DNA from: Saprospiraceae bacterium
Lineage (GTDB): Bacteria > Bacteroidota > Bacteroidia > Chitinophagales > Saprospiraceae
Assembly (NCBI GenBank): GCA_027008645.1
Contig: JALVEE010000289.1
Span: 1 to 43,695 of the forward strand
Direction of reading: 5' to 3'
Length of the DNA: 43,695 nucleotides
The position numbers were made by a program, and so were the translations under genes. The notes beneath the pieces are model-generated. The model saw nothing but the letters and a program-made list of their open reading frames with translations, had not been told where the DNA came from and did not search any database. This document shows, in pieces, positions 40 to 13,517 of the stretch (within the stretch, counting starts at the first letter, position 1; every line of letters starts with the position of its first letter).

Positions 40-771
40 CTACGCAGATTTTAACTCTTTCTTCTTCAATAAAACAGAGAAAATTACAACTAGTAAAGTT
101 AAAACAGCCAATCCAAATCCATATGCAGGATAAGATTCAGTTGTAAATTGTGCAACTTTACCTTCACCAAAAACAGTTGGCATAAATTCCTTTATCCCTT
201 CGAATGCACCTCCACCATGCAATCCTAAATGGTGTCCGTACCAATACAAAAAGTAGATATATAATGCTAAAAAATATACAGGTATAAGTCCGCCGACATA
301 AGCTGCCCAAGCATTTAGCTTCCTTGGAGTTGCTATAAAGTATATCATAAGAAGAATCATCAGTGCGAAGAAATATACAGAATTTCTCAATATCTGATCA
401 AGAAGTTTCAGAGGCTTTGGAATCTCATTTTCCGGAATTGATTCTCCGGCATATACAGGATATGGTACATGTTTTCCAATTTCATCCTTATCATTAGTTC
501 CTTGTACTATCGGATACATACCGATAAAGTGATTGATTTTATTCATTTCCAACAAGCAATCCGAACCGACATTCATAGCCAATTCTTCTCTTTCTCTCAC
601 ACCCTCACATCCATTATATACCCCATCGTATTTGAATATGATTCTAATTCCTTGAGGATACATAGCTTTTGGATATTGACGGCTTTGTAGCGCAACCCAC
701 CATACAGGACTTAGAAAAGTGAGGATAATTAACACTATAGCGAGACCTGCAAAAAGTTGATATTTTTTCAT
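40..771 (-). CDS. NosB-like integral membrane protein of the nos cluster (hypothetical)
   Basis: 243-aa ORF with an N-terminal TM, a periplasmic segment (PVWWVALQSRQYPKAMYPQGIRI...NKINHFIGMYPI) and several C-terminal TMs; same strand and next in order after the NosZ-like genes and a cytochrome c. Confidence 0.6.
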   Translation of the reverse strand: MKKYQLFAGLAIVLIILTFLSPVWWVALQSRQYPKAMYPQGIRIIFKYDGVYNGCEGVREREELAMNVGSDCLLEMNKINHFIGMYPIVQGTNDKDEIGKHVPYPVYAGESIPENEIPKPLKLLDQILRNSVYFFALMILLMIYFIATPRKLNAWAAYVGGLIPVYFLALYIYFLYWYGHHLGLHGGGAFEGIKEFMPTVFGEGKVAQFTTESYPAYGFGLAVLTLLVVIFSVLLKKKELKSA

Positions 772-1174: not shown

Positions 1175-1624
1175 TTATTTTATTGTTGCTTTAGCTTCAT
1201 TGTACATATATGAAATAGCATCGAACAAATCTTGTTCACTACAGTCCATACAAGTACCTTTAGGAGGCATCAAGTTATTATTAAAACCTTTGATTGAGTG
1301 CTCTAACAAAGTAGCCATACCTTTATCCGCTCTTTTTTGCCAATCTTCTTTATTGTATTTGTCTGCTTTCAATGCAGGTGCTCCACTTACTCCTGTAAAG
1401 TGACAAGCGATACAAGCTTTACTGTAAACTTTTTTTCCGTTTTCTAAATTTGCTTTCATTTTAGAAACATCAACTGAAGCTGTTTTTGCTTCTGCTTTAG
1501 TTGTTTCTTTTTTTACTTCTGCTTTAGTTTCGTTTGTTTTTGACGCTTTTTTGTCACCACCACAACTTGTCATAAGCAAACCGAAAAAAGCAACCATTGT
1601 TAGGGATAATAAGATTTTTTTCAT
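1175..1624 (-). CDS. Class I (c5-like) cytochrome c lipoprotein
   Basis: 149 aa; lipobox LLMTSC; CIACH haem motif; MPPKGTCMDCS C-terminal segment resembling cytochrome c5. Confidence 0.85.
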   Translation of the reverse strand: MKKILLSLTMVAFFGLLMTSCGGDKKASKTNETKAEVKKETTKAEAKTASVDVSKMKANLENGKKVYSKACIACHFTGVSGAPALKADKYNKEDWQKRADKGMATLLEHSIKGFNNNLMPPKGTCMDCSEQDLFDAISYMYNEAKATIK

Positions 1625-1798: not shown

Positions 1799-4195
1799 TT
1801 ATCCTTCCATGGCTTTTTTAGACTTAGCTTTCATGTACTCGATAATTTTCTTAACGTCATCTTTTGATACATTCTGATTAGGCATTTTTAGCTTAAATCT
1901 TTTGTACAATGCTTGTACATCTGCATCTTTGAAATGTGAATCCGGATCCAAAATCCATTCTTCAAGCCATTTATCGGATCTACGTTTATCAACCATCAAT
2001 AAGTCAGGACCATTAAAGTCTTCACCAAATTTATGGCAAGCGTTACATCCGTAGTTCAAGAATTCAAGTTCTCCGGTCATTAAGTTTTTCAACTCTATTG
2101 CAGACGGTTTAAATGCTTGCATCAAGTTATCCCACTGGATTCTCTTTGAGTACGCCAATAATTTAGCATTTTCAGCCTTTGCATTTGGCTCTACTGTAAG
2201 GTAGCCAACTAAACTTCTTCCTTCAGGGCTGTGTATTTTATCAAGCAATAATGGATAGGCTCCGGCTTTTTCCGCTTTGAATGCTATAGTAGCAGTCTCT
2301 CCAGGTCTCCATCTGTACATCTGATCATAAAGAGCAACCTCATATACATAGTGATCCAATTTTGACTGACCAAGGTTTGTTATATGTATTTCTACATCTT
2401 GACCTTGAGTCACTTTAATATTTCCGGGTGTAACTTTACCATTATTTATTGTTGCATAAACATGAACCGTATTGCCTTTTGTCTCAACTTTTTCTCCTCC
2501 TGCCGTTGTAGCATATGGTGATTTATAGTCAGTACTCGCACCGGTATATTTATAGATATTTGTTCCCACAGGATATACATCAATATCTTTAAAGAAATTG
2601 AAGTTAATCAAAGAAGTATAGTGAGGCTCTCCTAATGGTAGAGGCATATCATAAATCACTTTCATCTTATCACCTGAGATATCAATCAATTGGTGATTTT
2701 GTGGGTGAAGAGGTCCAACCGGATTAAATCTATCAATTGATAATTTATCCAAAGAAATCAGATATTTACCATGTGGTTCTCTTGAGTCACCATGTGCAGC
2801 TACCAAGTGTCCTACATTGTAGTGAGAAGGAACAAAACCTAAAACTTTACCTTCGATATAATTCCACTTTGTGATTCTTGAATCTACATATATAGATGTA
2901 TAAACTACTCCCGGAGTTTTATCATATTGGTTGTGCAATGGTCCAAGACCAACTTCTACACTTTTGTGAAGAGCGTCCTCAAGTTTGATTACGGGAATTC
3001 CAAATTTATCTGTACCTGAGAAATTCTTTTCCTCAATAGCTTTCTTAATCTTCTCAAATGAATACACCCATGCGTGACTGTCAAGTTTACCTGCAACAAT
3101 GATGTATTCTCCTGTTGGGTTTACATCAACACCGTGAGGTGATTTTGGCTCAGGAACAAGATAAAGTAATCCATATTTTTTAGATTCTTCGATAGTAATG
3201 ACATGCATTCCTCTGATTACTTTTCTACCAATCTTTCCGGCTTTAAATAGCTCTTCTGCTTTTTTCCAATTAGTAATATGAAGATAATCAACATCCCTGG
3301 ATGAACATCCCGCTTCAAAAGGAGGTCTTCCGCTCTCAATTCCACCGTAATACATTTCAGAACAGAAAGAGTTTGTGAACCCCCAACCGTAACTTGCCTT
3401 TTTACCTGCATCACTTAAGTCTTGAGTATAAGGAGGTAATTCAAAATCAAATGATTTGGACATATCTATTTGACCTTTCTCAACATCAAATTTCCAATAT
3501 GTCAAACCACCTCTCCAAATCTTTTTAAAGTTTTCTTCAGAAAGCGGGTGATATTTATGATCATAAGGAGCAGGATATTGGCATGCTTCCATGATATACT
3601 CTGAATTAGGTGTAAAGAAAGCACCTCCGTGTTCATTTCTAAATATCGGATTCATTACCGTTTGCTTCAATTCCCAGTCTTTCAAACTATAAATATAAAC
3701 TCTTGGGTTAGCCTTATCATTGATAGCAGCCCATTTACCATTATATACGCCATTGGTTTCTGAATAACCCGGATGGTGAGTATCACCCCAAAGTATTTCT
3801 GCTCCATCAATAAAACCGGTTTTCATCCTTTCCATTGATTCTTTACTGTATCCAAAACCGTTATATGGTTGTCTGGCAGCATTAACAGGATACCTGACGA
3901 GCCTCATTGAAGGGACCATATAAGTTGGCAAACTACCTGCTTGTCCTCCTGAGTTAAGTGCGATATATTCATCGCTAATTTTGTCCGGTGTATATGTTTT
4001 GGCAGCAGCCAGCACATCATCGGCATTCAAGTCTCTACGCTTAACAACATCAGCAAAAGACTCGTTGCCTCTTGGAGCACCAAATTCTCCCGAACCGGTT
4101 GTAGCTCCTTTTTTACCACCCTTATCACCACAACTCGCAAAAATCAGAGTCATTCCGAAAAGGATGATCATTGTTTTTAAACTAAAATTTTTCAT
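1799..4195 (-). CDS. nosZ: NosZ-like nitrous-oxide reductase, CuZ-bearing subunit: lipoprotein, seven-bladed propeller with all CuZ His, CuA-less cupredoxin domain, C-terminal cytochrome c domain
   Basis: 798 aa; lipobox LIFASC; WGDTHHPGYSETNGVYNGKWAAINDKANPRV (DxHH), NEHGG, KSPHGVDVNPTGEY, VGLGPLHNQYD, VGH, LGEPH, RFNPVGPLHPQNHQLIDISGDKM typical of NosZ; C-terminal CNACH haem motif; CuA Cys absent. Confidence 0.88.
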   Translation of the reverse strand: MKNFSLKTMIILFGMTLIFASCGDKGGKKGATTGSGEFGAPRGNESFADVVKRRDLNADDVLAAAKTYTPDKISDEYIALNSGGQAGSLPTYMVPSMRLVRYPVNAARQPYNGFGYSKESMERMKTGFIDGAEILWGDTHHPGYSETNGVYNGKWAAINDKANPRVYIYSLKDWELKQTVMNPIFRNEHGGAFFTPNSEYIMEACQYPAPYDHKYHPLSEENFKKIWRGGLTYWKFDVEKGQIDMSKSFDFELPPYTQDLSDAGKKASYGWGFTNSFCSEMYYGGIESGRPPFEAGCSSRDVDYLHITNWKKAEELFKAGKIGRKVIRGMHVITIEESKKYGLLYLVPEPKSPHGVDVNPTGEYIIVAGKLDSHAWVYSFEKIKKAIEEKNFSGTDKFGIPVIKLEDALHKSVEVGLGPLHNQYDKTPGVVYTSIYVDSRITKWNYIEGKVLGFVPSHYNVGHLVAAHGDSREPHGKYLISLDKLSIDRFNPVGPLHPQNHQLIDISGDKMKVIYDMPLPLGEPHYTSLINFNFFKDIDVYPVGTNIYKYTGASTDYKSPYATTAGGEKVETKGNTVHVYATINNGKVTPGNIKVTQGQDVEIHITNLGQSKLDHYVYEVALYDQMYRWRPGETATIAFKAEKAGAYPLLLDKIHSPEGRSLVGYLTVEPNAKAENAKLLAYSKRIQWDNLMQAFKPSAIELKNLMTGELEFLNYGCNACHKFGEDFNGPDLLMVDKRRSDKWLEEWILDPDSHFKDADVQALYKRFKLKMPNQNVSKDDVKKIIEYMKAKSKKAMEG

Positions 4196-4228
4196 AATTA
4201 TAATTTTTATAATTTTTATCTAATATTA

Positions 4229-6421
4229 TTATTGATCTACTCCAATTTTCTCAGCTAATAGCTTCTTAGCTCTCAAACCAACATCAGCTGTCTTAACTTG
4301 ATATTGCCAATATTGTTCAGCCCATAAGAAAGCGTCTCTCCATTTTCCTTCTTTAGCATATTTTTCATGATTAGCTTTTGCGGTCTCAGCTTTCTTCAAT
4401 TGATCAAATGCATCATCAACCAATGCAGCAACATAAGGATATTTGGAGAAATTATTTTTCTTCAACCATTCCACAACACCATTGATGATGTCTTGTGTTT
4501 GCTTGATGACAACAAGTTTATCTTCATAATTTTTCTTATATTCAGCTAATTCCTCTTTGGTCAACTTAACTTCAGCTCCCGTAGTCGGTCCTTTGTAATT
4601 CTTAGGTTTGATAAGAAGTATTCCTTCCATCTCAAGGTGAAGAGCAGAACAGAATTCTGTACAATAGTAAGGAAATACTCCGGGTCTATCAGCAACAAAT
4701 GTCAAAGATGCTGTTTTACCGGGCTCAAAACTACCGTGTTTACCATATGTATCCACAGTAAATCCGTGAGTTTCGTCTTCCGCTCTCTCCAAGTTTGTAA
4801 GGTGGAATGTAACTATGTCTCCTTCATTAACTTCAACAATTTCCGGAGTAATATGAGAACGGATAAGTGTACCGAACACGTGTACCCTATGAGTTTTAGG
4901 ATCTCTTTCTATTTTTTCTTGTCCTGCCACTGTTCTAAATGCGGAGATTTCTCCGGTACGGGTATTTGTTCCGAGTGGGTATCTAATAATAGGTTTAATT
5001 GTTGTTCTCTTAATACCAACATTTCCATATACATTTGCTTGAGGTAAAGACATTGTGTATATATCAACCATTTTATCACCTGAAATATCGATCAAATGTT
5101 GGTATGAAGGTCTTACAGGACCAACACTATGCCTTGTTTTGTAAATACCTTCCTTATCAACAGCTATTAAATAATTTGAATGTGGATCGGCAGATAATCC
5201 CTGTGGAACCATCAATTCACTTGGTCCGAATGTCAATGAAATCTCACCCAATTTCTTACCTGAAGCATAGTCAAATTTATAAACTTTCTTGTCATTAAAA
5301 GCAGAAAAATAAGCAACATTATCTCTCATTTCAAATGCAACATCTTTTACTCCGCTTCCTACTTTAAATGAAGATTTCTTTACTGATGCCAAATCAATAT
5401 TTCCATTTTTGACCGCACCATTAACCTTAGACAAATCTAAAACTACAGCTTCATCTGCAACTACAATAGCATATTTACCGTCAGGAGTAACTTTTATCTT
5501 AGTTGCTCCATTAACAGGAATATATGCAACATTACCACTAGCTGCTTTAGTTGAAACAGTTGCCATTGAATTTTTGCTGCCATCTGCTTTTCCGGCCAAT
5601 GCTTTGTAATTAATTGCATATATAAATGTTTTACCATCTTTTTTAGCAATACCATATACATAACCATCACTTCCATTTCTACCGGTATCAAAATACCCTA
5701 ATTCATAAGTAGGCAATTCGACTGTAAATGATTTTTCTTTAATCATACGACCGATATGGTGTCCCTCTTTTCCATGTTCAGCATCCTCAAATTTCCAAAA
5801 CGTAACGCCTGATTTAAAATCCTTAACATCTGTAGATTTCAAATCCCAAGGAGCAGGATATTGACTGGACTGAACTACATAATCAGTATTTTGGTCAACA
5901 GCAACTCCAGCATAACAACTGTGAAATAGTGGATGTGCAAGAATTTGCTTTGTCTCAAAATCATCAAGACCTAATAGTGCAATCCTTGAATTTGCTCCAT
6001 CGGAATAAAACAGGTATTTGCCGTTGTATTTTCCTCCGGCTTCAGAAAATGCAGGAAATCTCATATCCCCGTATTTTGCAATTCTGTCATCAAGTGACCC
6101 TTTTTTCAACATCAGCATACTTTCATCATCAAAACCATATCCTTGCCATGGTTCAGGTGAAAATACACCCACATACTTGTAAATACGCATGGAAGGTATT
6201 CCATACACAATCATGGTACCTGAATTACCTGTTCCGGCGAATCCAAAGTACTCGTCACGCCCTCCTCTGGGCATAAATGTCTTAACAGCTGCGAGAATAT
6301 CGTTGTCGTTAAGACCTCTGGCTTTTTTTACTTCATCGAGAGTTTGCTGCGCGTTCATGCCCGTTGCAAACAAAATCAAAGAAAGAAAAGCCACTAAAAA
6401 TCGTTTAGTCAATGCAATCAT
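4229..6421 (-). CDS. NosZ paralogue, CuA-bearing subunit: Sec signal peptide, propeller without CuZ ligands, cupredoxin domain with intact CuA site, helical C-terminal extension
   Basis: 730 aa; collinear with 1799..4195 (DEYFGFAG, IPSMRIYKY, SQYPAPWD, HLIDISGDKM); CuA motif ETHGF...FPYYCTEFCSALHLEMEG; DxHH replaced by DMRF. Confidence 0.87.
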   Translation of the reverse strand: MIALTKRFLVAFLSLILFATGMNAQQTLDEVKKARGLNDNDILAAVKTFMPRGGRDEYFGFAGTGNSGTMIVYGIPSMRIYKYVGVFSPEPWQGYGFDDESMLMLKKGSLDDRIAKYGDMRFPAFSEAGGKYNGKYLFYSDGANSRIALLGLDDFETKQILAHPLFHSCYAGVAVDQNTDYVVQSSQYPAPWDLKSTDVKDFKSGVTFWKFEDAEHGKEGHHIGRMIKEKSFTVELPTYELGYFDTGRNGSDGYVYGIAKKDGKTFIYAINYKALAGKADGSKNSMATVSTKAASGNVAYIPVNGATKIKVTPDGKYAIVVADEAVVLDLSKVNGAVKNGNIDLASVKKSSFKVGSGVKDVAFEMRDNVAYFSAFNDKKVYKFDYASGKKLGEISLTFGPSELMVPQGLSADPHSNYLIAVDKEGIYKTRHSVGPVRPSYQHLIDISGDKMVDIYTMSLPQANVYGNVGIKRTTIKPIIRYPLGTNTRTGEISAFRTVAGQEKIERDPKTHRVHVFGTLIRSHITPEIVEVNEGDIVTFHLTNLERAEDETHGFTVDTYGKHGSFEPGKTASLTFVADRPGVFPYYCTEFCSALHLEMEGILLIKPKNYKGPTTGAEVKLTKEELAEYKKNYEDKLVVIKQTQDIINGVVEWLKKNNFSKYPYVAALVDDAFDQLKKAETAKANHEKYAKEGKWRDAFLWAEQYWQYQVKTADVGLRAKKLLAEKIGVDQ

Positions 6422-12475: not shown

Positions 12476-13517
12476 ATGGATTCTAAAAAACAAAATCTAT
12501 TACTTATAAGAGCAAAAGAATTTTTTAGAAATGAAATTGTAGAATCTCATATAAACACCGCTTGTAAAAAAGCAAAGAAACTATCAAATTATAATATAAA
12601 TCCATTTCTCTACAAGTATTTAGCCAATTTTTTAAAAGGAAATGATAGTTCGAGAAGTATAGCAGAAGCTCTTGTTTTACCTCGTATTTTAGGACAGTCA
12701 ATTACAACTTCTTTTGGCATGAGAATTCAAAAATTAATCAGTGAATTACGAATTTGCCAGAGTTGTAAACGAGGTCAAGCCATTAATTTGTATTGGTGAG
12801 AATGTGAAAGGATTAATTTCGCACGATAAAGGAAAAACCTTAAGAGGAATGGTATCAATTTTGGATGAAATAGGATACAGAGTTGTTCCTGTTAAAGTTC
12901 TTAAGGCTATTCATTTTAGAGTACCACAAAAAAGAGAAAGGTTGTTTTTGGTAGGAATAAGAAAAGATGTGAATATTGATTTTGAATACCCCAAACCTCA
13001 TACTAAAATATATAATTTAGAAGATGCTCTTAAGAAAGGAGAACTTTATGATTGTGATGTGCCAAAATCGGAAGGAACTAAATACCCGGAAAGCAAAAAG
13101 AAAGTTTTGGATCTTATTCCACCTAAAGGATATTGGAGAAATTTGCCTTTAGAATTACAAAAGGAATATATGGGAAAAAGTTTTTATTTAGGAGGCGGAA
13201 AAACCGGAATGGCTCGAAGAATAGGCTGGGATGAACCAAGCTTAACCCTAACCTGCAGTCCTGCACAAAAACAAACAGAAAGATGCCACCCCGATGAAAC
13301 AAGACCATTTACAGTCAGAGAATATGCAAGAATTCAAACATTTCCGGATACTTGGAAATTCAAAGGATCTGTCTCACAACAATATAAACAAATAGGAAAT
13401 GCTGTACCTTGTAATCTAGGATTGGAAGTTGGATATTCAATTGTAAAATTCTTAAATAAATATTACTCCAAAAAGAAAATAGAAAGTAAAAAAGCAGTAT
13501 CCTTGAATAATAAATAA
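12476..13517 (+). pseudogene. Restriction-modification remnant: N-terminus of an Eco47II-like restriction endonuclease joined out of frame to the C-terminal half of a 5-methylcytosine methyltransferase
   Basis: ORF 12476..12799 (NPFLYKYLANFLKGNDSSRSIAEALVLPRILGQSITTSFG) runs into another frame encoding YEFARVVNEVKPLICIGENVKGL... to REYARIQTFPDTW...QIGNAVP (Dcm motifs VI-X); motifs I-IV incl. PCQ absent. Confidence 0.8.

Follow-up and report, generated by a model that had tools for sequence, protein, structure and literature searches.

Adjacent NosZ paralogues with complementary loss of CuZ and CuA ligands: a candidate heteromeric nitrous oxide reductase

NosZ is the main known biological N2O sink, and its solved structures are symmetric homodimers. 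To our knowledge, it is the only enzyme that destroys N2O, and the described forms carry both copper sites, CuZ and CuA, in one protein. In the window (here, the whole stretch of 43,695 nucleotides analyzed, a contig of a Saprospiraceae bacterium), two adjacent genes raise the question of whether one N2O reductase (N2OR) may be divided between two polypeptides. The earlier note, made from the letters alone, had described their products, A and B, as full-length NosZ homologues and read them as an obligate heterodimer. This reading was supported by every check that could be computed; the complex and its activity are inferred.

Family membership and copper ligands of the two proteins

Both genes are on the minus strand and their ORFs are 33 bp apart: B (730 aa) occupies positions 4229–6421 and A (798 aa) positions 1799–4195, exactly as first called. 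B consists of a Sec signal peptide, a dead propeller, a live cupredoxin and a C-terminal helical tail (residues 607–730, positions 4232–4603, minus strand), which has three predicted helices and no Pfam match. A is a predicted lipoprotein with a live propeller, a dead cupredoxin without CuA ligands (residues 569–669, positions 2189–2491, minus strand) and a C-terminal fused cytochrome c domain whose haem-binding motif is CNACH (residues 717–721, positions 2033–2047, minus strand). A lipobox-like motif occurs in 65/67 relatives, and by this motif A looks like a lipoprotein.

Each protein aligned over all 578 positions (1–578) of the TIGR04246 profile for Sec-dependent clade II NosZ, with A scoring above (653 bits) and B below (398 bits) the cut-off of 625. 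For both, the nearest solved structures by sequence were N2O reductases, and Foldseek searches with their AlphaFold models (mean pLDDT 78.2 for A and 81.5 for B) returned N2OR crystal structures as best matches, with TM-scores by target length of ~0.84 and ~0.79, respectively. Sequence-to-structure matches and fold comparison thus agree with the view of A and B as full-length NosZ homologues. Membership in the clade III lactonase-type NosZ (NF052460) was rejected, as A and B scored 87 and 80 bits against a threshold of 700.

In the crystallographically characterized M. nauticus N2OR, the CuZ ligands are H132, H133, H181, H323, H378, H429 and H490, and the CuA ligands are H579, C614, the W616 carbonyl, C618, H622 and M625 (PMC11573801). 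A has His aligned to all seven CuZ positions (140, 141, 189, 354, 421, 463 and 525), and H552, C587, E589, C591, H595 and M598 of B aligned to the CuA ligands; H552, the fifth CuA ligand of B, sits upstream of the loop CTEFCSALHLEM (residues 587–598, positions 4628–4663, minus strand). All of these except E589 had been named correctly in the earlier note. The residues of B in the CuZ columns are R, F, Y, K, D, E and Y (0/7 His), and those of A in the CuA columns are Y, L, K, H, G and L, with no ligand kept, so that the claimed absence of CuA ligands from A held. The claimed loss of all seven CuZ ligands from B was also confirmed, but the residue in the column of H354, within a gapped region, is K and not T307. 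An alternative alignment that would rescue the CuZ ligands of B or the CuA ligands of A was considered and rejected, since neither was restored by alignment with M. nauticus N2OR; in this structure-informed check no ligand was regained in either protein. The combination that defines a single-chain NosZ, seven CuZ His together with the CuA ligands, is met by neither A nor B, and the two jointly contain both full sets inside one gene pair.

The ligand pattern was uniform in all 68 A rows and 78 B rows (the window among them, and drawn from the matches listed), apart from B rows with His at a single CuZ column (one at the H189 column and 11 at the H463 column). All A rows with sequence in these regions have the CuZ His, and 76/76 B rows with sequence at the loop have the CuA ligands. 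Because the pattern is constant across these rows, complementary ligand loss is not a matter of chance.

The replacements in the dead CuZ site of B are themselves often fixed. The H378 column is D and the H490 column is Y in 78/78 B rows, the H132 column is nearly always R, the H133 and H181 columns are F or Y, and K450 is retained. One idea is that these residues plug the former copper cavity by salt bridges or aromatic side chains.

Occurrence of the pair, neighboring genes and electron entry

We scanned one genome per species for relatives and found at least 77 loci with a relative of B (60–96% identity). Their taxon labels, mostly of Bacteroidota, were Saprospiraceae, Flavobacteriales, Bacteroidales, Chlorobiota/Melioribacteraceae and Cloacimonetes, and nearly all were MAGs; likewise, the pair-bearing members are nearly all MAGs without a cultured representative. 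Among the matches listed, all 67 loci that have sufficient sequence carry A directly downstream of B on one strand, and in the other ten a contig end lies within 910 bp of B. In the family of the window, the pair occurred in seven other genomes of 397 searched, four of them from the same genus, and even samples of the class and the phylum yielded no further pair besides that of the own genome. The distribution of the pair is therefore patchy, with occurrences in particular lineages, most of them uncultured.

At 4.09 Mb and 96% completeness, the own genome encodes no nos_propeller proteins other than A and B. The earlier note had held that pairs not conserved in relatives, or a canonical single-chain NosZ elsewhere in the genome that does all N2O reduction with A and B unexpressed, would count against its reading; the pair proved to be adjacent and in one order in all 67 informative loci, and no canonical single-chain NosZ was found in this 96%-complete genome. 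When 47 pair genomes were inspected, 43 had exactly two nos_propeller proteins, one had only one hit, its A being truncated by a contig end, and one had four. Counting these together, 45/47 lack a NosZ outside their pair or pairs, and the other two have a third, canonical NosZ. The genome with four is a Lutibacter sp. MAG (SZUA-1414; loci L082 and L085) whose two complete A-B pairs lie on separate contigs. The two genomes with a third protein are Flavobacteria MAGs (L071 and L073), in which a canonical-looking NosZ lies on a separate contig; they are suited to asking why the pair and a canonical NosZ both persist.

The usual gene order in relatives is B, A, cytochrome c, a membrane protein, NosD, NosG-like and NosH-like proteins, an ABC ATPase and NosL/NosY-like proteins. 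In the window, A is followed by a 149-aa cytochrome c (positions 1175–1624, minus strand) with a lipoprotein-like start and a CIACH motif, a likely electron donor, and by a membrane protein conserved in the nos cluster (positions 40–771, minus strand), which is NosB-like by position, has no Pfam match and is encoded by the last gene ahead of the contig end. Another contig of the own genome (C288) has NosD, detected by profile match, at its end, followed by NosG/H-like proteins, an ABC ATPase, a NosL-like lipoprotein and an ABC-2 permease; that it adjoins the window contig is inferred from the gene order in relatives. The Pfam NosL model gave no match in the own genome, and the lipoprotein ORF on C288 was assigned to NosL by position and Cys motif only. 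With NosL accepted on that basis, the own genome has the nos maturation set (NosD, NosF, NosY and NosL).

Several other features were observed. Terminator-like hairpins are present on the minus strand between A and cytochrome c (positions 1745–1768) and past cytochrome c (1089–1126), and could set the A:cytochrome ratio. The own genome (G000) also encodes a cytochrome d1-family protein (PF02239, E 2.4e-113; C164:23008-24186), and its presence makes a nitrite reductase step in this organism plausible. At positions 12476–13517 of the window (plus strand), two ORFs overlap: one of 107 aa has no Pfam match, and one of 258 aa matches only positions 92–323 of the C-5 cytosine methylase profile; this looks like what is left of a truncated methyltransferase or restriction-modification system.

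The haem domain of A suggests how electrons may enter. Among 62 full-length A proteins, 50 have one CxxCH motif and 12 have two. In 27 relatives with an ordinary A, cytochrome c was seen as a gene of its own, and in the 12 with a long A a second haem domain is fused and the separate gene is absent. The fused domain is 57% identical to the best separate cytochrome. As a homologous domain is joined to A in these 12 relatives, cytochrome c probably belongs to this electron route. That electrons pass from cytochrome c to the haem of A, then to CuA in B and on to CuZ in A is inferred, and there are no data on haem-CuA geometry. A haem domain in all 62 full-length members, together with a NosZ profile cut-off that A still passes, would also suit a different enzyme, namely an A homodimer that reduces N2O independently of CuA, with haem c (and the cytochrome) replacing CuA and with B serving as a CuA shuttle or assembly factor. 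However, B was always present where the sequence allowed it to be seen, which is one reason why we regard this possibility as unlikely; others come from the domains and contacts described below.

Origin, constraint and surviving contacts

Three single-chain relatives that keep both sites were found, in Sulfuricella, Hydrogenophilales and Halobeggiatoa (51–54% identity to A and 43–45% to B), and additional ones occurred in the class of the first. In a tree of 79 rows, built with the ligand columns left out, A and B were each monophyletic (support 100), and A, B and the two-site single chains grouped together (99). A and B as one clade was not rejected, and the tree constrained in this way had the better likelihood; otherwise, how A, B and the single chains branch relative to one another was only weakly resolved. 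The CTEFC loop of B also occurs in the single chains, as does its ~120-residue C-terminal tail, and A has the haem c domain in place of the tail. Both the tree and the shared loop and tail fit a two-site gene that was duplicated in tandem and whose copies then lost complementary sites.

Constraint diverged reciprocally between the two proteins. Identity to the single chains was 0.59 for the A propeller and 0.33 for the A cupredoxin, and 0.41 for the B propeller and 0.69 for the B cupredoxin. Within families, the corresponding propeller and cupredoxin values were 0.76 and 0.66 in A and 0.66 and 0.90 in B. In each protein, the conserved domain is the one with the surviving copper site. This speaks against an A homodimer with B as an accessory factor, as the CuA ligands of B are invariant and no domain of the pair is as conserved as its cupredoxin, at 0.90 identity. 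Distances of A and B were correlated (r 0.84, 53 pairs); such a correlation, and shared trees, would also be expected from inheritance in one operon.

Metal-ligand loss seen in one genome alone would resemble decay, and it could be argued that the pair is non-functional, with B or both genes being remnants in decay or artefacts of assembly. We give this almost no credence. Comparison with close relatives gave dN/dS of 0.04–0.08 for A and B, i.e., strong purifying selection on both genes, the same residual ligands recur in ~70 loci from independent assemblies, and the nos maturation operon is conserved. A pseudogene or artefact was accordingly ruled against.

The strongest evidence, albeit indirect, for an A:B dimer over two separate homodimers came from residues that join the two protomers of solved N2OR. 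In these structures, a Ca2+ loop (E260, D274) clamps the propeller to the cupredoxin of the other protomer, E488 hydrogen-bonds the F617 backbone in the other protomer's CuA loop, and F617, E488 and K450 form the described conduit between the sites (PMC11573801). The E260, D274 and E488 positions are retained in 68/68 A proteins; in the window, the loop comprises residues 275–303 of A, including E280 and D303 (positions 3287–3373, minus strand). In B, this loop is deleted and the E488 position is N in 78/78 rows. On the cupredoxin side, all 76 B rows that cover the F617 position have F, where A mostly has Q, I, V or Y, and at the position of the acid D576 of P. stutzeri B has E and most A proteins have G; K450 is present in A and B alike. 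To the extent that aligned residues report on contacts, the known ones survive at only one of the two possible interfaces, that of the A propeller with the B cupredoxin, and it is this single surviving interface that favors the heterodimer. The argument depends on the roles that these residues have in structures of clade I enzymes.

The same residues bear further on the CuA-independent homodimer of A. Since F617 and the acid of the gating region, which have known roles at the interface with the partner CuZ domain, are lost from the A cupredoxin, an A:A dimer would be without a conduit on the CuA side, whereas B keeps both. They leave the subunit ratio undecided, and indeed no result here bears on it; A and B could cooperate at another stoichiometry, for example as A2B2 or with B at the periphery of an A2 core. 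We nevertheless consider this very unlikely, because the head-to-tail contact of the superfamily requires one propeller and one foreign cupredoxin, which is met by one A and one B, and because loss of the Ca2+ clamp from B leaves only one clamp to be expected per A:B pair.

Proposed enzyme and comparison with known systems

Taken together, it is very probable that A and B form an obligate heteromeric N2OR, most likely an A1B1 head-to-tail dimer, that arose by tandem duplication and complementary copper-site loss. The ancestor would have been a two-site, single-chain clade II NosZ whose tandem duplication gave rise to A and B, with CuZ subsequently lost in B and CuA in A. In the predicted enzyme, electrons from the membrane chain would reach the neighboring cytochrome c and/or the fused haem domain of A, pass to the CuA center in the B cupredoxin, and cross the only live interface to the CuZ cluster in the A propeller, where N2O would be reduced to N2. 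The second interface, between the dead cupredoxin of A and the dead propeller of B, may serve as a scaffold only. Copper loading, the physical heterodimer, the electron path and N2O reduction by A:B are all inferences for which there is no structural or biochemical evidence.

We also think it likely that the pair represents an undescribed class of N2OR, an obligate heterodimer with one live CuA-CuZ interface and haem entry, which is the sole N2OR of several uncultured lineages. No description of a heteromeric N2OR was found in the open full-text literature; subscription papers and preprints were outside this scope, and novelty is therefore probable rather than certain. A wastewater survey described MAGs with two nosZ genes, none of which were 45 or fewer genes apart (PMC11409646). 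If the enzyme is indeed split, its copper centers reside on separable polypeptides that would be open to study one at a time, and a dimer would need only one active interface. The pair is a clear candidate for the transition from homodimer to heterodimer via complementary loss. It also matters for surveys: A alone clears the standard NosZ profile, though it is not expected to work alone, and B falls under the cut-off, so that pair genomes can be misread as containing one ordinary NosZ or two odd ones.

A partly similar arrangement is known in DPANN archaea, whose NosZ-like proteins have CuA without CuZ and are of unproven function; in two MAGs, a His-containing NosZ-family protein is encoded directly upstream of the CuA protein (PMC10936187). 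Unlike B, the archaeal CuA protein is placed between Cox2 and NosZ by the tree of that paper, and its neighbor has five conserved His compared with the seven CuZ His of A; N2O consumption in the complementation test of that study was not significant (PMC10936187).

The closest relatives of A and B are gammaproteobacterial single-chain clade II NosZ (L128, L130, L131 and L133-L146, including those of Sulfuricella, Hydrogenophilales and Halobeggiatoa), which resemble B in loop and tail but have both copper sites in each chain and no haem motif. Wolinella-type cNosZ, a Sec-type clade II enzyme, is likewise a two-site single chain and carries a C-terminal cytochrome c. A shares with it this cytochrome c on a Sec-type NosZ but is without CuA. 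Canonical homodimeric NosZ of clades I and II (M. nauticus, P. stutzeri, P. denitrificans) has the same propeller-plus-cupredoxin fold as A and B and the same nos maturation genes, and its CuZ and CuA ligand sets, Ca2+ loop and E488/F617 are equalled by A and B combined. However, canonical NosZ is encoded by one gene and has two equivalent interfaces, whereas the A-B pair is encoded by two genes and appears, from its aligned residues, to keep these contacts at one interface only.
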